Shown piece after piece: positions 30,490 to 43,898 of a DNA stretch of 64,000 bases. Source of the stretch: Lentisphaerae bacterium GWF2_38_69. Lineage in GTDB: Bacteria > Verrucomicrobiota > Lentisphaeria > Victivallales > GWF2-38-69. The notes below the pieces were generated by a model. It made no database searches, was not told the DNA's origin, and was given only the letters and a program-made list of their open reading frames with translations. Position 1 is the first letter of the stretch. Each line of letters begins with the position of its first letter. The DNA is taken from contig MHBE01000059.1 of assembly GCA_001803205.1 (NCBI GenBank), forward strand, positions 62,001 through 126,000, in the 5' to 3' direction. Made by a program: the position numbers and the translations under genes.

Positions 30490-31758
30490 ATGCTCAAAGT
30501 AAAAACTTGTTTATCAATAGTATGGGATAAAGATTATCTTGTTTACGGTGCTCTTCTATCCAAAAGAGGTAAAAAATTTACCTTATTGAATTTTTCTTCC
30601 TGTATTGATAAGAACCGAACCTTTGCACAGAGATTGTCTGAAGTATACAAGAAACTTGGCGGGGACAACAGCGAGAGAGTAGTACTCGGCGGTTTTGTCC
30701 CTAATGCTTTAATTTTCTCTTTAGATATACCAAATCTCAAACCTACAGAAATCAAGAAATTCCTTGACTTTGAAATCAGCCGATACATTCCGGAAAATCC
30801 AGAAGACTACGCCTGGACATTCAGGCCGATTCTTTATCCTGGAGCTGATAAAAATAAAATAGAAAAAATAAAAATTATTGCTCTCTACAAGTCAGTAGCA
30901 GATGAAATCGCAAAATCATTGATTGAATCAGGAATGAAATTTGATGCTATTCTTCATCCTTTTTTTGTTATAGACCCGCTTTATACTGCTTTTGATTTAT
31001 ATCTGGAAACTATTGATGATAAATTCTATTCAAGAGCTTCTATTGAACAAGAAGGCTGGTTCATGTCTGAATTACCAAAAGACGAGACTCAGAAACAATT
31101 ACTAGCCGAAGAAACGAATTTTGCGTTTCATCGCTTCGAGTCAATGCTTAAAGAGAGTCTCAAATATTTTATTCCAAGTATAATCCTTGCCGAATACTCT
31201 CTTTCCAGGACATTTGATATTGAGAGAAAGAATTTTTTTCCAGTCCCTCCCTCCTGTAAGCCAAAGCGGTTTAAGCTTTTAAAGCTCGGAGCTGTTGCGG
31301 CCTTTGCGGTTTTTCTGTTTCTTGCTGGATTTTATATTTGCAGGGAATCGATTGATAATTACAGATTACTGGATAGCTTGAAAAATCAATTGGCCTCATT
31401 AAAAACTGAACTTAATGACATTAAAAGAAAAGCTTCAAAAGAGAAAACTACTAATGACTACATTCAGCTAACGCTTACTTCCGAACCTGATGATATTGAC
31501 GCATTAAATTTTCTTGATTATTTAAGCAAAATTACTCCCAAAGATGTCTGGGCCAACTATCTGAATACTTACGGCAATAGTGCAAATCTTACAATGCAGA
31601 CGACTGGCAATTCTGATGCTCTTATCTCTGAGCTTTACAGATCTCCCGAATATACACTTCAAAACAGCAGAAAAAATAAATCTTCAGATGGATCTGAGTA
31701 CATTTATATAAGTTTGGTTAAAAAGTCAAAAGACAACTCTGATTATCTACCGCAATGA
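30490..31758 (+). CDS. gspL: type II secretion inner-membrane platform protein GspL (PilM-PilN-like)
   Basis: First gene of the secretion operon, 422 residues. The N-terminal 245 or so residues look like the actin-like cytoplasmic domain (LDIPNLKPTEIKKFLDFEIS and YIPENPEDYAW are PilM/GspL-like). A basic stretch follows, then a membrane segment around residues 262-280 (AVAAFAVFLFLAGFYI), a coiled coil and a small periplasmic PilN-like domain. It links the ATPase GspE to the pseudopilus base. No obvious ribosome site precedes ATG 30490. The stop overlaps gspM (ATGA). Confidence 0.8.
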   Translation: MLKVKTCLSIVWDKDYLVYGALLSKRGKKFTLLNFSSCIDKNRTFAQRLSEVYKKLGGDNSERVVLGGFVPNALIFSLDIPNLKPTEIKKFLDFEISRYIPENPEDYAWTFRPILYPGADKNKIEKIKIIALYKSVADEIAKSLIESGMKFDAILHPFFVIDPLYTAFDLYLETIDDKFYSRASIEQEGWFMSELPKDETQKQLLAEETNFAFHRFESMLKESLKYFIPSIILAEYSLSRTFDIERKNFFPVPPSCKPKRFKLLKLGAVAAFAVFLFLAGFYICRESIDNYRLLDSLKNQLASLKTELNDIKRKASKEKTTNDYIQLTLTSEPDDIDALNFLDYLSKITPKDVWANYLNTYGNSANLTMQTTGNSDALISELYRSPEYTLQNSRKNKSSDGSEYIYISLVKKSKDNSDYLPQ

Positions 31759-32405
31759 AGAAAATATCATTTAAAATTTTACTGCCTAAAGCAATAAGAG
31801 AAAATAAACTCATAAAAGGGAAAAAGAATTTACTTATTCCTGTTGGCATTATCATAGGCGTAATTATCATACTTTCGATCCTTGAAAGTTCTTTTGGCCT
31901 ATTAAGCACAACTTTTATGGGACAGGAAACAATAAAAGAATATACTAAAGAAATACTTGGAATTCAAAAGCAGATCCAGATAGAACAGGGAGCGTATAGG
32001 GATATACTTGACAGAGAGGCGCAATTTATTTCTCAAAAAAATGAATATTGGATTACACAGAGAGACGGTGATATGAATCAGAGTTTTCAGCAGAAAATCT
32101 CATCTGCCGCATCAAAAGCCAGTGTGGATTTAAGTACTGCCGGTTCCGTGCAGGTTTCAAAAATCAGCGATGATCTCAGCATCGGTGAAGTCGAGATATC
32201 CTGTTCAGGGAGCATGGAGGAAATAACAAAATTTATTTATGCTTTGACTTATTCTACTCCAAAAATGTACTGGGAAAGGTTTTCACTTAGACCTGATAAC
32301 TACAACAGCAAAGGTACCATATATATGACTTGCGATGCCAAGTTTCTAATAATAAGTAATAAGGACATTATTACCCTTTTTGGTATCGGAGAAAAAAATG
32401 ATTAA
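31755..32405 (+). CDS. gspM: type II secretion protein GspM-like (PilO-like)
   Basis: A 216-residue bitopic protein: short basic cytoplasmic tail, membrane helix about residues 27-45 (LIPVGIIIGVIIILSIL), a coiled-coil stretch, then a ferredoxin-like periplasmic domain rich in alternating strands (GSVQVSKISDDLSIGEVEIS). Identified by position between gspL and gspC and by the PilO/GspM architecture; primary sequence similarity is weak, as usual for this family. It overlaps both neighbours. Confidence 0.7.
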   Translation: MKKISFKILLPKAIRENKLIKGKKNLLIPVGIIIGVIIILSILESSFGLLSTTFMGQETIKEYTKEILGIQKQIQIEQGAYRDILDREAQFISQKNEYWITQRDGDMNQSFQQKISSAASKASVDLSTAGSVQVSKISDDLSIGEVEISCSGSMEEITKFIYALTYSTPKMYWERFSLRPDNYNSKGTIYMTCDAKFLIISNKDIITLFGIGEKND

Positions 32406-33102
32406 AATCCTCTACATGGCATCAATTCCTTTATTTACTCTGCTTATACTGATTTTCCTTGCTCTTAATTTGACATATAAATCGCCAATCATAAATCAGG
32501 AAATGCTAAAAACAAGCGAAATGCTTATAAAGAATAGCCCTACTCAGAATTCATCAGAAATAGAGGTAAATCACTCAACACCTCCAATAATTTCAGAAAT
32601 TTGGGAAAATAATATTTTCAATCCATCAAGAGCTTCATCAGCTGATAGTTCTGGAGGAAAATTATCTCTAAAAGATGTCACGCTTATAGGAGTATTCGGC
32701 AATGGCCCTATCTTAGGTGGAGTATTTCAGATTAACAGTCCTCAAAATCCTCAAGGAGGAGATTATTCCTATGGAACACCTAACCAGCAGAGTAAAGAAG
32801 CTCCTCCAAAACCTAAAATGGTATTTCTCATAGGAGAGAAATTGCCAAATGGGTATGTTCTCAAATCAGTCGATAAAGATTCTGTAATTCTTCAGGGAGG
32901 AGACAGCTCCGTACCGCTTCAAATTCAATTTGCTGATGAAGACAGCACAAAAAGATTAGCTGAAGGACAAAGGAATATTGTCCAACAACAAGCAAGAATA
33001 ATTGAAAGCGGAAATCAAGCTTCTTCAGGAGAGAATGTTTCAAGCTCAAATTCATCAAGTATAGTTATTAGGAATAATCCGGATCAAAAACAGAATAATT
33101 AA
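32398..33102 (+). CDS. gspC: type II secretion protein GspC-like
   Basis: About 234 residues from ATG 32398, chosen over a TTG at 32380 because GGAG precedes it and it overlaps the gspM stop. An N-terminal membrane helix (ASIPLFTLLILIFLAL) is followed by a linker and a homology-region-like segment LSLKDVTLIGVFGNGP that in GspC contacts the secretin N0 domain. A second strand pair KLPNGYVLKSVDKDSVILQ resembles the PilP/GspC fold. The C-terminus is a Gln/Ser/Asn-rich tail without a PDZ domain. Confidence 0.72.
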   Translation: MIKILYMASIPLFTLLILIFLALNLTYKSPIINQEMLKTSEMLIKNSPTQNSSEIEVNHSTPPIISEIWENNIFNPSRASSADSSGGKLSLKDVTLIGVFGNGPILGGVFQINSPQNPQGGDYSYGTPNQQSKEAPPKPKMVFLIGEKLPNGYVLKSVDKDSVILQGGDSSVPLQIQFADEDSTKRLAEGQRNIVQQQARIIESGNQASSGENVSSSNSSSIVIRNNPDQKQNN

Positions 33103-33678: not shown

Positions 33679-36129
33679 ATGACAAATAGATTTTTTACTA
33701 GGTTAAGAACAGCCTGGAAAAAAGGAATATGCTTATTTCTTTATGTGGTATCTTTTAGTCTTATCTTTTCTTGCAGCAATGTTGATGATTCTTTACCGGG
33801 AGATAAAAAAGAAAACCCGAATAATTATACAAAAGACCCAATAATGCCTGTAGAATCAAAGCCTAACACTACTTCGCCTAGCGATGAAAAAATTAAACCT
33901 GTCGCAATGATGGGGCACAGCGTAGCTGAATCAGAAATAGATTCTCTTGATGAACAAAAAATAAAGGACTTTTCCCAAAATACAGAACCTCCATTTTATT
34001 CTTATTTTGCCGAACAACAAAAAGATTTTAATGATGAAAACAGAGTAACTATTTCATTTAATGCAGCTCCAATTGAAGAAGTAGTTCCTGCCTTTGCCAA
34101 AATTTTGGATTTTAATTTCTATCTTGATCCAGCTATTAAGGGTACAGTTACGATGTCTGTGGATGGAGATCTTGCAAAAAGCGATGGTTGGCAGATATTT
34201 GAACAAATATTAATCTTTAACGGCGCCTACTGTTCTGTAGAAAGCGGCATAGTTCATATTCTTCCTCTGAGCGACTTAGCTCAAGAGAGTTTGCATCCTG
34301 GAGTTGGCAGATATCAATCTAATGTGAGCGTTACTCTTTTCAGATTAAAAAATATAAAATCATCAAATCTTGCCCAGCAGATAAAACCATTTATGAGCAA
34401 TGGGGGAGTTATTATTGATATTGCTGACCAAAATTCACTTCTTATTGTGGAGATCCCGATGAATATGCCCAAAATAAGAGCTGTGATAAATATGCTGGAT
34501 GTGAACAGTAAGCATTCCTGGCCTAGGGCTGTTATAAAATGTTCTAATATCACTCCTAGTTCGATAGCTGCTGAGCTGACTAGAGTTCTTCCTGTTTTAG
34601 GATTTCCCGTAGATTATAATCCTCCTGATAACAATTCTCAAGGATATGGATCATCTGGTGGTTCATCGGGCTCGAGTTCTTCAAATCAAACAATGCTTAA
34701 TTCTAATACCAGTGAAATAGGCGCTATTAATCTTCAAGTAGTCGATAGGCTTCAGCTGCTGGTAGTATCAGCCGCGAATGATGAAGTTCTTGGCGAGGTA
34801 AAAAAATGGGCTGATGTATTAGATAGAAGCGATGTAGGAGACCAAGATCAGATATTCATATACAATATCCACAATGCCAATGCAGATGATCTCATTCAGA
34901 CCTTATCGATACTCTTTAATGTGCAAGGAGCAACCCTTACTCCTTCTAAAACCTCTTCAAGCGCCACAGGCGGATCCTCATCTGGAGGGCTTAGCGGTGG
35001 CTCGGGTGGTCTCAGTGGCGGCAGCTCGGGTGGCCTCAGTGGTGGCGGATCTTCCATGAGAGCTACAGCATACGATGTTACTCAGGTTACATCTCAAAAT
35101 ACACAACAGGGAGGAAGTCAGGCAGGCAGCGGGCAAACCGGTGTGGGGCAAAATACTATCAGTATTTATGATTATCCTATGAGAGTCATGGCTGATGCAA
35201 AAAACCAAAGGCTTATCGTACGATGCATACCAAGAGCTTATGCTATTGTGAAAGCACTCCTTGACAGGATTGATACAATGCCTCCTCAGGCTCTTCTTAC
35301 TGTCACGGTAGCAGATATAAGCCTCGAGAACGACCTTGATGTTGGAGTACAAGCTCAGTTTAAAACAATTGCCGGTGATTTTGGAACTGATTATGGTCTA
35401 GGAGATGAATTCCCTGCCGGAGGCGCCGGAAAAACTGATGGATTCTCATGGGTATATAATTCTGGACTAGCAGACGCAACTTTTCATACGATACAGACTG
35501 AACATAAAACAACGATGCTGGCAAATCCTGAAATTCTTGTACAAAGCCACTCTCCTGCTACAATTTCTATCGGTCAGTCAGTCCCTATAAATACCGGTTC
35601 GACAAATAGTGGACAGGGCGGAACTACAACTTCTTACGATTATAAGGATGTTGGAATAATTGTTCAAATGACTCCGCATATAACAAAAGGCGGCCTGATC
35701 AACCTGGAATTCAGTCAGACAAATTCTAAAATTGATAATGATATATCAAGTGACAGTGCAGGCGGCAATCCCACATTTACCCAGGAAGTCCTGACTACCG
35801 TAATGAATGTTCCTGACGGAGGAACAATTATAATAGGCGGGCTTATTATGAATAATGTTTCTGATGTGGTAGAAACCATTCCTTTTATTGGGAATCTTCC
35901 TTTTTTAAGTAGAATGGTTGGCAGTTCCTCTTTAGTAAAAACAAGGTCAGAATTATTAGTTCTGATTACTGCCAAAATAATAACTAAAACAAATGAACTT
36001 GAACAGATGAATCAACGGTACCTAAACAGTGTTAAGCTTATAAAAGAGAGTTTCACTAAAGATGAAAAAGACAATTCTCATGTATTTCAGGCAGAAGACA
36101 TAAATAAGCTTTACATCAAGGGCGACTAA
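33679..36129 (+). CDS. gspD: type II secretion secretin GspD
   Basis: The outer-membrane channel, 816 residues. The signal sequence ends near SLIFSCS, a near-lipobox, so it may be a self-lipidated secretin. N-domains include TISFNAAPIEEVVPAFAKIL (N0), SVTLFRLKNIKSSNLAQQI (N1), RAVIKCSNITPSSIAAELT and IFIYNIHNANADDLIQTLS. The secretin core has VQSHSPATISIGQSVPI, DVGIIVQMTPHIT, MNVPDGGTIIIGGL and VETIPFIGNLPFLSRM. A Gly/Ser-rich segment (residues 431-459) interrupts the last N-domain region. It is followed by gspE. Confidence 0.95.
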   Translation: MTNRFFTRLRTAWKKGICLFLYVVSFSLIFSCSNVDDSLPGDKKENPNNYTKDPIMPVESKPNTTSPSDEKIKPVAMMGHSVAESEIDSLDEQKIKDFSQNTEPPFYSYFAEQQKDFNDENRVTISFNAAPIEEVVPAFAKILDFNFYLDPAIKGTVTMSVDGDLAKSDGWQIFEQILIFNGAYCSVESGIVHILPLSDLAQESLHPGVGRYQSNVSVTLFRLKNIKSSNLAQQIKPFMSNGGVIIDIADQNSLLIVEIPMNMPKIRAVINMLDVNSKHSWPRAVIKCSNITPSSIAAELTRVLPVLGFPVDYNPPDNNSQGYGSSGGSSGSSSSNQTMLNSNTSEIGAINLQVVDRLQLLVVSAANDEVLGEVKKWADVLDRSDVGDQDQIFIYNIHNANADDLIQTLSILFNVQGATLTPSKTSSSATGGSSSGGLSGGSGGLSGGSSGGLSGGGSSMRATAYDVTQVTSQNTQQGGSQAGSGQTGVGQNTISIYDYPMRVMADAKNQRLIVRCIPRAYAIVKALLDRIDTMPPQALLTVTVADISLENDLDVGVQAQFKTIAGDFGTDYGLGDEFPAGGAGKTDGFSWVYNSGLADATFHTIQTEHKTTMLANPEILVQSHSPATISIGQSVPINTGSTNSGQGGTTTSYDYKDVGIIVQMTPHITKGGLINLEFSQTNSKIDNDISSDSAGGNPTFTQEVLTTVMNVPDGGTIIIGGLIMNNVSDVVETIPFIGNLPFLSRMVGSSSLVKTRSELLVLITAKIITKTNELEQMNQRYLNSVKLIKESFTKDEKDNSHVFQAEDINKLYIKGD
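34969..35055 (+). repeat. Gly/Ser low-complexity tract inside gspD
   Basis: Twenty-nine codons almost entirely Gly, Ser and Leu, built from the unit GGLSGGS repeated about three times. The DNA shows matching short tandem repeats (GGTGGC/CTCAGT blocks) and is much more GC-rich than its surroundings. A shorter Gly/Ser stretch lies near 34650-34690. Slippage is the likely source. Confidence 0.8.
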
Positions 36130-36151: not shown

Positions 36152-37744
36152 ATGAATTTTCTCAACTCTTTAAACGAATTTTCAAAAGATTTTACGAGGA
36201 TATACGAAGCATATCCATTTGATCTTTCTTCCAAGGAAAGAGAGAAACTCGACTGGGAACTTTGCAGCAGAGGAACTATTCCTGAAGCTGAGCTGATAAG
36301 GACTTACTCTAGAATAACCGAAATAAAAATCAGAGAAGAAGATGAACTTACAAATGTTGAAAAGTTTCCTAAAATATCGTTGGAGTATTTGGAAAATTTT
36401 TGTTTTATCCCTTTCAAATGGGATGAAAAATCAGTTGAGCTTGTAGTAAGTTCTCCTTACAGGATCGACTCCATCGCATATATTTTTAAACAACTTTACG
36501 ACATGGATTCAACTTTTTCCTACGCAAGACGCAGTGTTTTGGAAAGGCTTATTCAGGAAACTTACAATAAGGAATCTCAAGAGGAAGAACAGGGGTTCGG
36601 CCCTGCAGACAGCCAGGAAGCATTGATGAACATGGCTACTGAAGCCAAAATAGTCCGTTTGGTAAATGAAGTTTTTTCAAGAGCAGTAGAAATGAATGCC
36701 AGTGATATCCATGTAGAACCTGAAGAAAATAAATATGCAATTCGTTTCAGAATAGACGGCAATCTGCAGGAATTTATGACAGGATCAATCAATCAGTACC
36801 CGGCGGTGGCCTCAAGAATTAAACTTGTCGGGGGGTTAAACATCGCCGAAAGCAGACTTCCGCAGGACGGCAGAACAAATATTCATCTTGGCAAAAGCGA
36901 AATTGATATGCGTATTAATACAATCCCAACACTAAGCGGAGAAAGCATTGTCCTTCGTCTTTTACGAAAAGATGCAATGGTATTTAATTTGAAAAACACC
37001 GGAATGATCGATGGAATGCGGAAAAGATTTGAGGGAATAATTACTCTGCCTCACGGTATTATACTTGTTGTGGGTCCGACAGGGAGTGGTAAATCCACTA
37101 CCTTGTACAGTATTATGTCACAGCTTAATACCCCGGAAGTTAAAATTATCACTATTGAAGATCCTGTGGAATACAGGATTCCAGGTCTCTCACAGATGCA
37201 GGTCAATCCAAAAATTGGCTTAAATTTTTCAAACGCACTGAGAAACATTGTTCGCCAGGATCCGGATATAATACTAGTTGGAGAAATAAGAGATAAGGAA
37301 ACTGCCGATATAGCAATTAACGCTGCTCTTACTGGGCATCTGGTATTAAGCACATTGCATACTAATGACGCAGTAGGCGCAATAAGCCGACTTCTTGATA
37401 TGGGAGCTGAAGGGTTTCTAATAGCCTCTTCATTAGTTGCTGTCCTTTCGCAGCGTTTGGTAAGAAGGATATGCAAGGATTGCAATGGGAAGAGCGCTAC
37501 CGACCATACGATTAAATGTAAAACTTGCAGTTCTTCAGGATTCAAGGGACGCCTCGCAATCATGGAACTTCTTGTAATTGATGATGAAGTAAGGCAGGCA
37601 ATTATCAAAAATACAGACAGCTCTACACTTAATAAAATAGCTATCAAGAATGGAATGATTCCAATCCAGGATGACGGCATTGAAAAAGTAAAAGCTGGTC
37701 TGACAACGGAACCTGAAGTTTATGTAGCTGCAAAGAAAGATTAA
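36152..37744 (+). CDS. gspE: type II secretion ATPase GspE
   Basis: Cytoplasmic hexameric ATPase driving pseudopilus assembly, 530 residues. N1E-like domain about 1-140; then SDIHVEPEENKYAIRFRIDG, Walker A GPTGSGKST at 308-316, Asp box TIEDPVEY, Walker B ILVGEIRDKETA and His box LSTLHTNDA. A zinc-ribbon CKDC...CKTC lies near the C-terminus, as in GspE and PilB. It is followed after 79 bp by gspF. Confidence 0.97.
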   Translation: MNFLNSLNEFSKDFTRIYEAYPFDLSSKEREKLDWELCSRGTIPEAELIRTYSRITEIKIREEDELTNVEKFPKISLEYLENFCFIPFKWDEKSVELVVSSPYRIDSIAYIFKQLYDMDSTFSYARRSVLERLIQETYNKESQEEEQGFGPADSQEALMNMATEAKIVRLVNEVFSRAVEMNASDIHVEPEENKYAIRFRIDGNLQEFMTGSINQYPAVASRIKLVGGLNIAESRLPQDGRTNIHLGKSEIDMRINTIPTLSGESIVLRLLRKDAMVFNLKNTGMIDGMRKRFEGIITLPHGIILVVGPTGSGKSTTLYSIMSQLNTPEVKIITIEDPVEYRIPGLSQMQVNPKIGLNFSNALRNIVRQDPDIILVGEIRDKETADIAINAALTGHLVLSTLHTNDAVGAISRLLDMGAEGFLIASSLVAVLSQRLVRRICKDCNGKSATDHTIKCKTCSSSGFKGRLAIMELLVIDDEVRQAIIKNTDSSTLNKIAIKNGMIPIQDDGIEKVKAGLTTEPEVYVAAKKD

Positions 37745-37823: not shown

Positions 37824-39020
37824 ATGACAATGTTCAGATACAGAGTTGCTGATAAGAACGGAAAAACTGTTGAAGTTTCTATCGATGCTGAAAATGCTGC
37901 TGAATCCTTGAAACGACTGAGAGCAAGAGGATTAAATCCATTGGAAAACCTTGGAGAAGGAGCATCTGGTGAAAGAACAGGACTTTTTAGGAAAAAAACC
38001 TCTTTTAATATTTATCAGTTTATTGACAGGCTAGTACCTCTTCTAAAAGCTCATATTCAACTTGAAAGAGCTTTTGGGATAATGGCAGACGGGACAGAAG
38101 ATAAAGGACAGAAGGAAATTATTCAAAACCTGCGGCGTGGACTCCATGAAGGTAAAAAGCTTTCAGAACTTGTTAGAGCAAAACCAGAATATTTTCCTTC
38201 CATATGCGCTAACCTGATCGAAGCTGGAGAAGAATCCGGAGCCTTGATAGAAGTCATGATAGAGCTTAAACACTTTCTGGATTATAAAAAAGAAACCTCT
38301 GAATTCATGGTTACAAGCTCAATTTATCCGGCAATAATTATCTTTGTAACTGTTGTAGTGATTATTCTGCTTTTTACGGTCTTTGTTCCAAGGTTTACAA
38401 AGATATTCTTCGATATGGGTAAAGCCTTACCTCTTCCCACGCAAATAATGGTATGGATAAGTAATATTATGACAGGTTTCTGGTGGTTATGGCTCTCTTT
38501 AATTGCCGCAATCTCATTTTCAATTATAAAAGTTCGCAGAAATGAGAAGGGAAGAGTCTGGTGGGATAAAAAAATGCTTACCCTTCCTCTCATAGGCGGA
38601 ATTATTACTGTTATGGAAATAGGAAGATTTATTAAAACTCTTGCAGTCCTTATCAAGAATAATGTTCATCTGATAAGCACAGTTAATATTGCTTCAAAAA
38701 TTTTAGAAAATAAGGAATTAAAAATCTCCCTCTCAGCTGTTAATGCGGATCTCAAAGGGGGGAAAAAACTTTCAAAAGCGCTATCTAAATCAGCATATGT
38801 TCCAAAAATCGTTCTTCAAATGCTTGAGGTAGGCGAGGAATCAGGTAATATGGGAGGAATGTTGGCCGATGTGGCTGAACAACTGGAAAAAGACATGAAA
38901 CTTAAAATTAAGAGGCTTCTTGCTCTATTTGAGCCGGCTTGTATTCTTTTCCTGGCTGTAGTTGTTCTAGCTGTGGTTATTTCTATATTTTTAGCTATTA
39001 TGGAAATGAACAATGTTTAA
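37824..39020 (+). CDS. gspF: type II secretion inner-membrane protein GspF
   Basis: The polytopic platform protein, 398 residues. Two repeats of the T2SSF domain are seen: residues about 60-185, with LIEAGEESGALIEVM, and about 260-390, with MLEVGEESGNMGGML. Each is followed by hydrophobic helices (SIYPAIIIFVTVVVIILLF and ACILFLAVVVLAVVISIF). The N-terminal FRYRVADKNGKTVE is typical. GGATTTATAAAG precedes the ATG. Confidence 0.95.
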   Translation: MTMFRYRVADKNGKTVEVSIDAENAAESLKRLRARGLNPLENLGEGASGERTGLFRKKTSFNIYQFIDRLVPLLKAHIQLERAFGIMADGTEDKGQKEIIQNLRRGLHEGKKLSELVRAKPEYFPSICANLIEAGEESGALIEVMIELKHFLDYKKETSEFMVTSSIYPAIIIFVTVVVIILLFTVFVPRFTKIFFDMGKALPLPTQIMVWISNIMTGFWWLWLSLIAAISFSIIKVRRNEKGRVWWDKKMLTLPLIGGIITVMEIGRFIKTLAVLIKNNVHLISTVNIASKILENKELKISLSAVNADLKGGKKLSKALSKSAYVPKIVLQMLEVGEESGNMGGMLADVAEQLEKDMKLKIKRLLALFEPACILFLAVVVLAVVISIFLAIMEMNNV

Positions 39021-39047: not shown

Positions 39048-39464
39048 ATGTTAAAAAGAAAAAAAACCAGATTTTTCACATTGATGGAAATGGTAGTTGT
39101 AATAGCTATTATAGCATTACTTGCGGCTATCGTCACACCGATGTACTTTAAACATGTAAAGACAGCCAGAATTCAGTCTGCCAAAACACAGATTTCACTT
39201 CTTGGTGAGGCTATAGACGATTACAGGCTTGACACAGGTAAACTTCCAAGAAATCTAAATGATTTGCTGACAAATGGTTCAGGAATGAAAAAGTGGAATG
39301 GCCCATATCTGCAGGCAAATAAACTTCCTCCTGATCCATGGGGTGATGATTATCAATATGTAGTTCCTGGTAAATACGGAGATTATGATCTTTACAGTTA
39401 TGGAGAAGCAGGTCCTGGTGGAGGCTCAACAGGTGATAGTGTTATCGGAAACTGGACTAATTAA
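39048..39464 (+). CDS. gspG: type II secretion major pseudopilin GspG
   Basis: A 138-residue pseudopilin. Basic leader, then FTLMEMVVVIAIIALLAAI with Glu at +5. The residue at -1 of the processing site is Phe9 instead of Gly. The C-terminal domain has LDTGKLPRNLNDLL, WNGPYLQANKLPPDPWGDDY and a final GEAGPGGG, all GspG hallmarks including the calcium-site loop. A strong AAGGAGG lies ahead of the ATG, fitting high expression of the major subunit. Confidence 0.95.
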   Translation: MLKRKKTRFFTLMEMVVVIAIIALLAAIVTPMYFKHVKTARIQSAKTQISLLGEAIDDYRLDTGKLPRNLNDLLTNGSGMKKWNGPYLQANKLPPDPWGDDYQYVVPGKYGDYDLYSYGEAGPGGGSTGDSVIGNWTN

Positions 39465-39909
39465 GATTAAACTTAAGGCTTTCACGCTTCTTGAACTTAT
39501 TTGCGTGATGGCAATTTCAGCTCTTTTAATAGGTTTGGTAATAGGCAGGGTAGGTAAAGTCCCTGCCTATCTTACTTTCAAGAATAATCTGTATCAAGTT
39601 TCCGACTTGATGGACGAAGCTTCTAACTGGGCTGAATTGAATGGGAAAAAAATAGTAATTATCTATAACGACGGGCAATTTTATCCTCAAGATGAAAGGA
39701 TAAGGAGAAGAGGCTCCAATCTAGATTTTGAATTACCCTCTTTTATAGATGTATCTTTTAATGACACGAGTCCTGCACTGAAGCAATTTGTTTTTTTTCC
39801 TGACGGATCTTCAAGCGGACCTGATATGGCTTTTTCTTACAAAGGACATTCTGCCACATTTAAACTCTCAAAACTTACTGGTATGCCTATCCTCAAGATA
39901 GATGAATAG
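39433..39909 (+). CDS. gspH: type II secretion minor pseudopilin GspH
   Basis: About 158 residues. I place the start at GTG 39433, with GGTGGAGG 9 bp upstream, so it overlaps the end of gspG by 32 bp. In-frame starts further upstream would lie deep inside gspG. Leader ends in Ala, then FTLLELICVMAISALLIGLVI with Glu at +5. The C-terminal part has the GspH-type sequence FFPDGSSSGPDMAFSYKG. It ends overlapping the gspI start. Confidence 0.85.
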   Translation: MIVLSETGLIKIKLKAFTLLELICVMAISALLIGLVIGRVGKVPAYLTFKNNLYQVSDLMDEASNWAELNGKKIVIIYNDGQFYPQDERIRRRGSNLDFELPSFIDVSFNDTSPALKQFVFFPDGSSSGPDMAFSYKGHSATFKLSKLTGMPILKIDE

Positions 39910-40297
39910 AAAACAAAAAATAAAGCATTTTACTCTTATAGAAGTTGTTGTTGCATTGGCAATCCTGACTGGAGGAATTATGGGTTCAATGGCAATTGTT
40001 TCCATGTCTAAAAACAGGATGGACAAGGCATACGATAGTTTTTTTGCGCAGCACATGCTTTCTCAGGCTGCAGAATATTATCTGCTTTGCGGCAATAAAC
40101 CAATAACTCCTGACTTTTTCTCTTACTCAGGTTATTCTGCGTATTGTATTATAAATGACTGTCGTGATAACAATATTCCAATGAACACAGGAAGCAATTG
40201 GAAATTAGTTACATATGATATATCTATACGCGGTCCTAATGGCCGGAACATAAGCTCAGTTAAAATAGATAAATTAATAAAAAATGAAATCTTCTAG
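39902..40297 (+). CDS. gspI: type II secretion minor pseudopilin GspI
   Basis: A 131-residue protein: short basic leader ending in His9, then FTLIEVVVALAILTGGIMGSM with Glu at +5. The following region (HMLSQAAEYYLLCG) resembles GspI, whose tip helps nucleate the pseudopilus. It overlaps gspH by 8 bp and gspJ by 14 bp. Confidence 0.85.
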   Translation: MNRKQKIKHFTLIEVVVALAILTGGIMGSMAIVSMSKNRMDKAYDSFFAQHMLSQAAEYYLLCGNKPITPDFFSYSGYSAYCIINDCRDNNIPMNTGSNWKLVTYDISIRGPNGRNISSVKIDKLIKNEIF

Positions 40298-40946
40298 CAG
40301 AGTTAAAAGCTATTTAAAAAATTTCACCCTTTTGGAGATGATTCTGTCAATGTTCATCTTCTCCATCATCATGATCATTTTAGGCACAGCCATGGCAACT
40401 GCCCAGCAGAGCCTTAGAAAAGTTAGCGCTAAAAATGTTTCACTGATGTCTCTTCAGGGACTAGAAAGAGTTTTCACTTTTTCAATAAGAAATGCAGTTC
40501 CTTTTCAATGGCCTGACCAATCTAAAACAAATAGGTCTATCTTCATTGGAGAACCTAATAAAACAAGCTTTGCCTATCTCCATCGGGTAGTAGACGCTAA
40601 CGATGGAGGTATCAGATTTATTCAATTCTATCTTCAACAGGACAATCTTATTGCTGCTTATAGGGAAATTCCAATTCTCCCATGGGATAACGGAACTTTG
40701 AATGCTGCTGAAACAGAAATTTTAGCTACCAAGGTCAGATCTCTGAATATCTTATATGCAGACAGAGTTAATAATCAGATTGTCTGGTCTAATAGATGGA
40801 ATACTAATAACAATATGAACATTCCTCTGGCTATACAAATCAAAGTCGAATGGCAAGATGGCTCTTCAGAGCAATGGCTCAGGCGAACAGCAGGTTCTGG
40901 CCAATATGAATCACTGGGAATGAGAATGGGAGTGTCCAATGACTAA
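40284..40946 (+). CDS. gspJ: type II secretion minor pseudopilin GspJ
   Basis: A 220-residue protein. Leader ends in Asn13, then FTLLEMILSMFIFSIIMIIL. The later WNTNNNMNIPLAIQIKVEW is the GspJ C-terminal strand pair. It forms the I-J-K tip complex with its neighbours. It overlaps gspK by 8 bp. Confidence 0.88.
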   Translation: MKSSSRVKSYLKNFTLLEMILSMFIFSIIMIILGTAMATAQQSLRKVSAKNVSLMSLQGLERVFTFSIRNAVPFQWPDQSKTNRSIFIGEPNKTSFAYLHRVVDANDGGIRFIQFYLQQDNLIAAYREIPILPWDNGTLNAAETEILATKVRSLNILYADRVNNQIVWSNRWNTNNNMNIPLAIQIKVEWQDGSSEQWLRRTAGSGQYESLGMRMGVSND

Positions 40947-41976
40947 ATCTGAAATACAAAGTCCGAAAATGGAACTTCAAACTTTCAAACTGCAAAGAGG
41001 GGCTGCCTTGATTGTAGTTCTCTCCTTTTTAGTTCTTCTTTCACTTATAGTTTCTACAATAGTGGTTCTATCTAAATCCGCTTCAACGAAAATAATAATT
41101 GAAGGCGACAGAATAACTTCAGGATATCTGGCTGAAGGCGCTGCAGCCAGGCTTCAATGGCTCCTCATGGACGATATAAAGGCTCATCCAAATTCAAATG
41201 CTTTAAAAAGATTTGATAGCATTATGAACGATAATAATACTTCCGGCTCAAGAAAATATATGGCAAATGGCGCTCCGGTAAGTATTCCTTATTACGATGC
41301 AAGTATTACTGTAAGAATTTACGATATGTGCTCAGGTCTTAATATAGGAGGAGGACAGGGAGTTAATTCCCTTAAGCAGCTCCAGCAAGTCTATGTTAAT
41401 ACCCCTGACCTGTATTATGAATTTAAAGTATTTATAAACCGATTTACAGATTATATAGGAACAGGTTTTGGACAAACTGTAAATGGGTTGGGCAAAGCCG
41501 GTTATAACAATCTTGGATTAGCTCCTCTTCCTAGAAACGGACAGATACAGTATCGGGATGAAATTCTATGGATCCCTGGCTCTCAGTTGTTTTTCTATCC
41601 TGATGATAATGGAAGATTGTCTATCTTTGATGTAATTGCCAACGACTTTTACGCAAATCAGGTTAATTTCTTTTCCGCAAGTAAACTTATCATAATGGCG
41701 TTATGTAATTATTCAGATCAAGATGCTCAATATATTATTGAAGGCAGAGATAGATGGTTTGGTAACTCTAATTTATCACTCTACGACTTCATTGATCAGA
41801 AATATATGTCAGTGCTTAGACAGAAATTCTCTTTTCAGGACTCTGGAAACTATACTTTTGTTATTAATGCTGCGGCTAGCGATGGTTCATACGAAAGAGA
41901 ACTGATAATTTCCCTCAAAGTAGCTACTTCAATGCAGGGTGAATACAATCAGTACTATGAATATATTCTCTATTGA
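40939..41976 (+). CDS. gspK: type II secretion minor pseudopilin GspK
   Basis: A 345-residue protein, last of the operon. LQRGAALIVVLSFLVLLSLIV has Gly at -1 and lacks the +5 Glu, as is normal for GspK. The long insert domain with a YDMCSGLNIGGG-type region and YRDEILWIPG fits the GspK family, whose large domain caps the tip. It is followed by tRNA-Ser 45 bp after its stop. Confidence 0.88.
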   Translation: MTKSEIQSPKMELQTFKLQRGAALIVVLSFLVLLSLIVSTIVVLSKSASTKIIIEGDRITSGYLAEGAAARLQWLLMDDIKAHPNSNALKRFDSIMNDNNTSGSRKYMANGAPVSIPYYDASITVRIYDMCSGLNIGGGQGVNSLKQLQQVYVNTPDLYYEFKVFINRFTDYIGTGFGQTVNGLGKAGYNNLGLAPLPRNGQIQYRDEILWIPGSQLFFYPDDNGRLSIFDVIANDFYANQVNFFSASKLIIMALCNYSDQDAQYIIEGRDRWFGNSNLSLYDFIDQKYMSVLRQKFSFQDSGNYTFVINAAASDGSYERELIISLKVATSMQGEYNQYYEYILY

Positions 41977-42020: not shown

Positions 42021-42112
42021 GGAGAGATGCCGGAGCGGTCGAACGGGGTGGTCTCGAAAACCATTGATGATTTTTTAATCATCCCAGGGTTCGAATCCCT
42101 GTCTCTCCGCCA
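42021..42112 (+). tRNA. tRNA-Ser (anticodon CGA)
   Basis: Class II tRNA with a long variable arm (TGATGATTTTTTAATCATC region). Acceptor GGAGAGA/TCTCTCC, anticodon loop CTCGAAA with CGA, T-arm CAGGG/CCCTG, discriminator G, CCA encoded at 42110-42112. Confidence 0.95.
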
Positions 42113-42384: not shown

Positions 42385-43898
42385 TTAACCTGAATTCCAG
42401 AAATGTTGTAACTATGCCAGCAAAGTGACACCAAAAGCCTCCATGATTTTCCTTTGAATAGGGTTGGTTTCGGTAAGCAGTTGACCATAGCGATGTGAAT
42501 ACTTGATCTGCACCAGCGTCTCCATGTCCTCCATGACTTCGCGAACAGTTAGGTTACGCAGGACTTCATCCTCTTGAATGATGTTACGAATACGACAGAT
42601 GTAGATCAACGCAAGAAACTGCAGGAAAAGTCTTGCATCCATTGCGGCAGAGGAATGAATGCGCAATCGCTTCATGTCCAAGGTATTTTTGAGATCGTCA
42701 AAACTGTTTTCAACAACATCTTTGGCGCGATATACCCTTAATGCTGTTATCGGGTCTTTGATAGCATTGGACAATATGCAGAAAAATCCGGCATAGCGTT
42801 TTCTGTTTTTACGAATTTCTTCATCATTAAATGAAACTTTCAGTCCCCTCTTCGGAGTTTCCTTTATAGTAAGATATCGCTGATAATATTCCTCGTGTTC
42901 TTTGAGCCGCTTCCCGGAGTCTACTTCCTCTTTGTATTGGAGCATTTCGTTGGTAAAACGGTCGAACTCTGTAGCGGCTTGCCGATCATTGAAATAGATA
43001 TGCATATATGAGCGTTTGCTGCTCTTTCCCCATTTGTGGAGCACGGTTTTTATGAACAGCGATTCAACATCATCAATTTTTCTGTAATTGACAGGAGACT
43101 GGATCGTGTCGGCATACTTGTCGATGATGTTCTCCACCCATTTGCGTCCGGAAGGCAGAGCAATGGTAAACTTGTGGTGGCGCTCAAATAGATCATCGAT
43201 ATTCTGTTCGCTGTAAAAGCCCCGATCCAGAACAAAATTCATGCCAGAAGTACCAAGGAGATCCAGAGACCTCAATGTGGTTTTTAATGTAGCAACATCA
43301 GTAATGTTGCCCTGTATGCGCGGCGATAATAAGCCGGAATGTGGCTGTTCTGGCCGAACAGCATCGCCAGATTGATCTGAGGCAAGGTCTCATGGTCGCG
43401 ATTGTAACCGTATTTGAGGTATTCATTACTTTGAGCATACGATGAAACAGATGTAATGTCATAACACAGATAATCGTGTTCCGTCATCTTTGATAACCAC
43501 AGGGAGAGAAAGTGCTGACGATCGTTTTCCGTAATCCGGCGCAGCAGATCGCTGATGCGTTGACTTCTTAGGAGGTCTCCGAACGGATGCAGATGCCCGA
43601 TGCTCCACGGTTCACAATGAGCCAGAGGTAATCCTTTCTGAACAATGAAGTAAACGATGCTCATAATCTCGGCATATATCTCCGGAAAACACTTCTTGAG
43701 CATTATATCAAGACCGATTTCAGAAGTAATTTTTTCCAGCAACAGATATGATCCGGCTACCAGTGCTTTCGCGGTTACCTCCGGCGCTGAAGATGCTCGT
43801 TTAGCAAGACTTCTGTTTCGTTTCGACGGAATTAGCGCTCCAGTTTCCTTATCCATCTTTCCCAAACAGACTTGCTTGTTAGCGGGAATTGAGGTTAA
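42385..43898 (-). mobile_element. IS4/IS1634-type insertion sequence, about 1.51 kb
   Basis: Bounded by inverted repeats: TTAACCTGAATTCC at 42385-42398 and, read on the minus strand, TTAACCTCAATTCC at 43885-43898 (13 of 14 match). It contains one transposase gene that is broken by a frameshift. No clear target duplication was found next to these ends, so the true tips may extend a few bases outward or the flanks have decayed. Assignment to the IS1634 group is from transposase motifs. Base composition is more GC-rich than neighbours, suggesting recent arrival. Confidence 0.8.
42412..43856 (-). pseudogene. DDE transposase of the IS, frameshifted
   Basis: The N-terminal part (43856-43284) has the first catalytic Asp in DYLCYDITSVSSYAQ. 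The C-terminal part (about 43310-42412) has FVLDRGFYS (second Asp) and DVVENSFDDLKNTLDMKR with the catalytic Glu (Y-R-x-K-x3-E). Near 43307-43314 the expected GNITDVATLKT continues in the -1 frame, so one G appears lost from a GGG run. A programmed -1 shift is less likely because no canonical slippery heptamer is seen. Intact length would be about 480 residues. I chose ATG 43856 over TTG 43865. Confidence 0.85.

Follow-up and report, generated by a model that had tools for sequence, protein, structure and literature searches.

The type II secretion system (T2SS) operon at this locus raises the question of how pseudopilins are processed when the residue before the cleavage site is not glycine. 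According to the literature, the bacterial prepilin leader ends invariably in Gly, a residue described as absolutely critical (PMC4471445), or in Gly or Ala (PMC10191384), and the authors of PilFind likewise state that PilD cleaves at glycine or alanine (PMC3244431). More generally, these reviews describe prepilin processing as little understood (PMC10191384, PMC4471445). The window, i.e., the whole analysed stretch of 64,000 nucleotides from Lentisphaerae bacterium GWF2_38_69, carries genes for GspG to GspK on its forward strand. GspG, the major pseudopilin (39048..39464), scores 116.9 bits against TIGR01710 (cut-off 88.85) and has the leader MLKRKKTRF before FTLMEM, with Phe at −1. The GspH-position pseudopilin (39433..39909; PF07963, 22.4 bits, above cut-off) has MIVLSETGLIKIKLKA before FTLLEL, with Ala at −1; its probable start is a GTG at 39433, eight bases past a GGAGG at 39420, with no ATG nearby. 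The GspI-position protein (39902..40297; TIGR01707, 22.6 bits, best match but below cut-off) has MNRKQKIKH before FTLIEV, and the GspJ-position protein (40284..40946; PF11612, 21.1 bits, below the cut-off of 28) has MKSSSRVKSYLKN before FTLLEM, giving His and Asn at −1, respectively. As for the GspK-position protein (40939..41976; NF037980, 25.1 bits, below cut-off), it reads KLQRG before AALIVV, with Gly at −1 and without Glu+5. Among the five, only GspG passes an NCBIfam family cut-off; H, I, J, and K are named from weak matches and gene order, and GspH from operon order, its TIGR01708 match being below cut-off.

Translation of 39048–41976 thus agrees with the sequence-only reading of this DNA, which had reported Phe, Ala, His, and Asn at −1 of GspG, H, I, and J with the right coordinates, and had held that the genes are not decayed. 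In line with this, the genes have open frames and an undamaged mature motif. GspG, H, I, and J of the window show the other traits of class III leaders, namely a basic leader followed by a hydrophobic helix with Phe+1 and Glu+5. Its count of four deviations in four genes, however, comes down to three, since Ala at −1 is accepted elsewhere; Gly or Ala is absent in G, I, and J, while the Ala of GspH lies within the accepted range. Similarly, GspK is the only gene that keeps Gly within the window operon, but this is no rule for the class. Among the class GspK-like starts, Gly stands at −1 in 6 of 13 read (L019 is unreadable, and the residue in L026 depends on the placing of the helix start), plus the window's own, and the others have Asn, Arg, or His. 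The idea that GspK keeps Gly due to its missing Glu+5 was rejected on the same Asn, Arg, and His loci.

The remaining genes of the operon, also on the forward strand, identify the system. GspD secretin (33679..36129; TIGR02517, 294.6 bits), GspE ATPase (36152..37744; TIGR02533, 526.9 bits), and GspF platform protein (37824..39020; TIGR02120, 316.7 bits) are each the best match, and the core genes D, E, F, and G lie in one operon, with G above its cut-off and D, E, and F as best NCBIfam matches below their equivalog cut-offs. The best named relatives of the window GspE are Lentisphaeria T2SS loci. Upstream, a GspM-like protein (31755..32405) matches PF10741 T2SSM_b with 22.5 bits, above cut-off, and a possible GspL/PilM-like protein (30490..31758) and a possible GspC-like protein (32380..33102) are named by operon position, both having no Pfam match. 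Directly 3' of gspK lies a tRNA-Ser (cga) at 42021–42112. Just past the operon, two neighbouring open frames occupy 42412–43865 on the minus strand. The first matches a transposase DDE domain (PF01609) and the second has no Pfam match, suggesting that it may be the other half of the transposase and that this is a broken insertion sequence.

The other FTLxE leaders of the genome, where the sequence-only reading had allowed that Gly might predominate and so contradict it, do not bring Gly back. Of the 17 matches that a TIGR02532 search found in the genome, one is RmuC and no pilin. At the genome's loci, 17 FTLxE or FSLxE leaders were read, one of them outside the TIGR02532 match list, and their −1 residues are K, S, A, H, F, N, K, R, N, L, Y, L, T, F, I, S, and Y, with Gly in 0 of 17. 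The genome encodes one A24 prepilin peptidase (contig G000:C53), and no second A24 enzyme was found in it. According to its domain matches, this peptidase is complete: PF01478 scores 54.8 bits, with catalytic D132 and D204, the second within GxGD, and the N-terminal methylase domain PF06750 scores 120.6 bits, with CxxC occurring twice (four Cys).

Leaders read from the DNA of related loci support the same picture. Of the 44 G–J leaders in 11 named Lentisphaeria T2SS operons, 42 have neither Gly nor Ala at −1, while the equivalent leaders of non-Lentisphaeria T2SS loci have Gly in 94% and Ala in 4% (n=123), and chance is thus no explanation of the window leaders. Over 213 class leaders, Gly makes up 1.9% at −1 versus 1.6% at −2 to −7, i.e., background. 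The −1 residue is the most variable of the leader positions and includes Lys, Arg, Phe, and Pro, with an entropy of 3.68 bits (outgroup: 0.38); compared with other leader positions, it shows a mild enrichment of Ala, Pro, Ser, His, and Tyr. Phe+1, which was free to vary in the reading script, is found in 96–100% of class leaders versus 89% in the outgroup, a small rise left uninterpreted because the two sets differ in paralogue make-up. Glu+5 is fixed too, but it is set by the search pattern, so its 100% is no evidence of conservation.

The sequence-only reading had also suspected a lineage-wide shift, and both the leaders read and the pattern counts bear this out for the whole class. FTLxE codon patterns were counted genome by genome and split by whether a Gly codon stands at −1. 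Within the order to which the window belongs, Gly precedes 377 of 5909 leaders (6.4%, 75 genomes); for the remaining orders of the class the figure is 39 of 1622 (2.4%, 24 genomes), versus 1053 of 1446 (73%) in other classes of the phylum, the latter summed over 85 genomes out of 190 listed. Among 150 listed −1 codons from these other classes, 113 are Gly, 32 Ala, and 5 other, the few T-initial codons lying outside the sample. Given that Gly is lost in the window's order and in other orders of the class and not in other classes, the change seems to be a derived one that arose at or close to the root of Lentisphaeria. Within the window's order, G031 contains GspE DNA that is 100% identical to that of an uncultured Victivallaceae MAG, which identifies the order as the one to which Victivallaceae belong. 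Some class genomes, e.g., G019, G023, and G024, have more than 200 FTLxE leaders each according to the pattern, mostly of FTLIELLVVIAII proteins.

One genome, G294, stands at 33% Gly and was considered as a counter-example, which was rejected, as its Gly copies stem from one repeated leader family. It has about 60 FTLIELL leaders with a Gly codon (e.g., L246, L248, L257, L259, L260, and L274). Those read are identical over about 100 bases through VDEAEPISRNSLMLRG, inclusive, after which the proteins diverge, and many lie at contig ends; the repeat is a promoter-and-leader cassette before different pilin-like genes.

Such counts could in principle reflect chance, gene decay, or base composition, with degenerate genes or false FTLxE matches among them. 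Some pattern matches are indeed due to chance, as control counts indicate, and one family match of the genome is RmuC. Controls, however, give 0–3 per strand in nearly all genomes, versus tens to hundreds of FTLxE matches per genome, the frames are open with the mature motif intact, and class loci with Gly loss span 44 to 62% GC. The Tad/Flp pilins serve as an internal control in five class genomes having short Tad-type peptidases and readable Flp pilins. In 4 of these 5, all 7 Flp-like leaders end in Gly or Ala. Since Gly or Ala persists in most Flp pilins of the same genomes, the loss concerns FTLxE substrates specifically and is no compositional effect. At class scale, this alternative is refuted and retains next to no probability. 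The restriction to FTLxE substrates holds mostly, not strictly: in the fifth genome, G005 (L125), the −1 residues of two Flp (Tad) pilins are Arg and His.

The best explanation is a tolerant peptidase, because the single A24 enzyme of the genome keeps its active-site Asp residues; the earlier proposal that the host enzyme accepts other −1 residues is supported to this extent. Judged from these sequences, the GspO/PilD-type peptidase of Lentisphaeria probably cuts before Phe+1 without needing Gly or Ala at −1 (P1). In mechanistic terms, it would have lost its requirement for a small residue at P1, the cut would still fall just before Phe+1, and Phe+1 would probably still be methylated. The position of the cut would probably be set by the mature side (Phe+1, Thr+2, Leu+3, and the hydrophobic helix) together with the basic stretch at the membrane surface, and with P1 freed, the −1 residue of FTLxE leaders could have drifted to any residue. 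A stronger form, which we favour with less assurance, is that these peptidases have no P1 requirement whatever and would accept almost any residue before the cut, Lys, Arg, Phe, and Pro among them, locating the bond by means of the mature-side motif and the membrane register. The loss of Gly, its spread over the class, the intact peptidase with both Asp and the four Cys, and the fixed +1 and +5 are observed; continued cleavage at this bond, the siting of the change in the peptidase, and the features that place the cut are inferred. Counting against the tolerant peptidase are the lack of a substitution that cleanly separates the aligned peptidase groups, the differing paralogue make-up of the sampled groups, and the loss of Gly from Flp pilins of G005, which means that the change does not stay within GspO substrates in every genome.

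The main rival is that FTLxE leaders are not cut at all: the proteins would be anchored by their N-terminal helix, the −1 residue would drift, and the peptidase would serve a few remaining substrates. Non-cleavage would account for an unconstrained −1, including Pro in 14 of 213 class leaders; moreover, many class leaders are short (4–6 residues), and many of the genes encode multi-copy FTLIELLVVIAII proteins, of which filaments are not required. On the other hand, Phe+1 is kept at a level above what a membrane anchor alone needs, the cysteines of the methylase domain are kept, and complete T2SS operons have no Gly at G–J, several class loci having lost the GspK Gly as well. Published mutagenesis also indicates that efficient processing depends on the leader (reviewed in PMC4471445). 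Furthermore, the peptidase persists with GxGD and zinc cysteines in genomes in which the pattern found no Gly leader, e.g., G001, G072, G106, G141, and G172, although the pattern sees FTLxE forms only and would therefore miss the Gly at −1 of GspK in L199 (G072) and L200 (G141). Overall, non-cleavage appears unlikely. Even less likely, and quite improbable in our judgement, is a cut at another bond or by another protease, e.g., after a basic residue with subsequent trimming. Lys and Arg do dominate −1 to −4 of the class leaders; however, leaders everywhere are usually made up of basic residues, none of which is fixed at any leader position, the conserved boundary remains at Phe+1, and the genome has no second A24 peptidase.

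Returning to the tolerant peptidase, the alignment compares 23 Lentisphaeria GspO-type enzymes to 28 Gly/Ala-type peptidases, including E. coli GspO and PppA. Both catalytic Asp are kept throughout the alignment, and the four Cys are kept in the listed Lentisphaeria enzymes. In the vicinity of the active site, M200 is found in 3/23 Lentisphaeria versus 23/28 Gly/Ala-type peptidases, Ala or Gly at 199 in 10/23 versus 28/28, L207 in 8/23 versus 24/28, and Lys or Arg at 136 in 14/23 versus 1/28, where the counts and their Fisher values ignore relatedness; position 36 (Y36W) also differs by count. No substitution in this alignment cleanly separates the groups, and a single substitution (M200, Y36, A199, or L207) was rejected as the cause. 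Both M200L and Y36W occur in E. coli PppA (W36, L200), so these residues alone are insufficient for relaxation, and position 200 is L or F also in L144 and L153, whose genomes use Gly/Ala leaders. The comparison with Gly-specific peptidases proposed by the sequence-only reading thus confirmed an intact catalytic Asp pair but did not isolate the responsible residue. A sequence search found no solved bacterial relative of the peptidase.

A long insert between the Asp-bearing halves was observed in the A24 peptidases of L116, L117, L119, L120, L121, L122, L127, and L128. The insert-bearing enzymes, from other orders of the class, have open frames of about 390–490 residues, and L150 (G090) has the insert as well. 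As a cause of the relaxation it was rejected, being present in G090 (45% Gly by pattern) and absent in the window's genome.

The leader-cutting enzyme of Lentisphaeria has thus probably lost a requirement thought essential in bacteria. Pilin finders built on the Gly/Ala rule would miss most pilins of this class, and thousands of rule-breaking substrates within one class make its peptidases a natural set for finding the determinants of P1 specificity. A literature search, with most subscription journals beyond its reach, found no paper on Gly-less leaders in Lentisphaeria.

In comparison with known systems, the enzyme resembles PilD/GspO (A24 plus the A24_N methylase domain) in domain order, catalytic Asp pair, GxGD, the CxxC...CxxC arrangement, and FTLxE substrates, and differs in that its substrates have no Gly or Ala at −1 across the class. 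The E. coli K-12 gsp operon with GspO and PppA shares the gene order D–K and homologous peptidases; all five of its leaders, however, end in Gly. TadV/CpaA-type peptidases, present in some class genomes, are likewise A24 enzymes acting on class III leaders but, unlike Lentisphaeria GspO, have no methylase domain, and in 4 of 5 class genomes Gly or Ala persists in their Flp pilins. The closest functional parallel is archaeal PibD of Sulfolobus, a broad-specificity class III peptidase reported to tolerate more variation near the cleavage site than FlaK, whose substrates must have Gly at −1 (PMC4187195). The likeness is one of function: PibD is part of an archaeal machinery and acts on a different substrate set (PMC4187195), whereas the relaxation proposed for Lentisphaeria is read from thousands of bacterial leaders.
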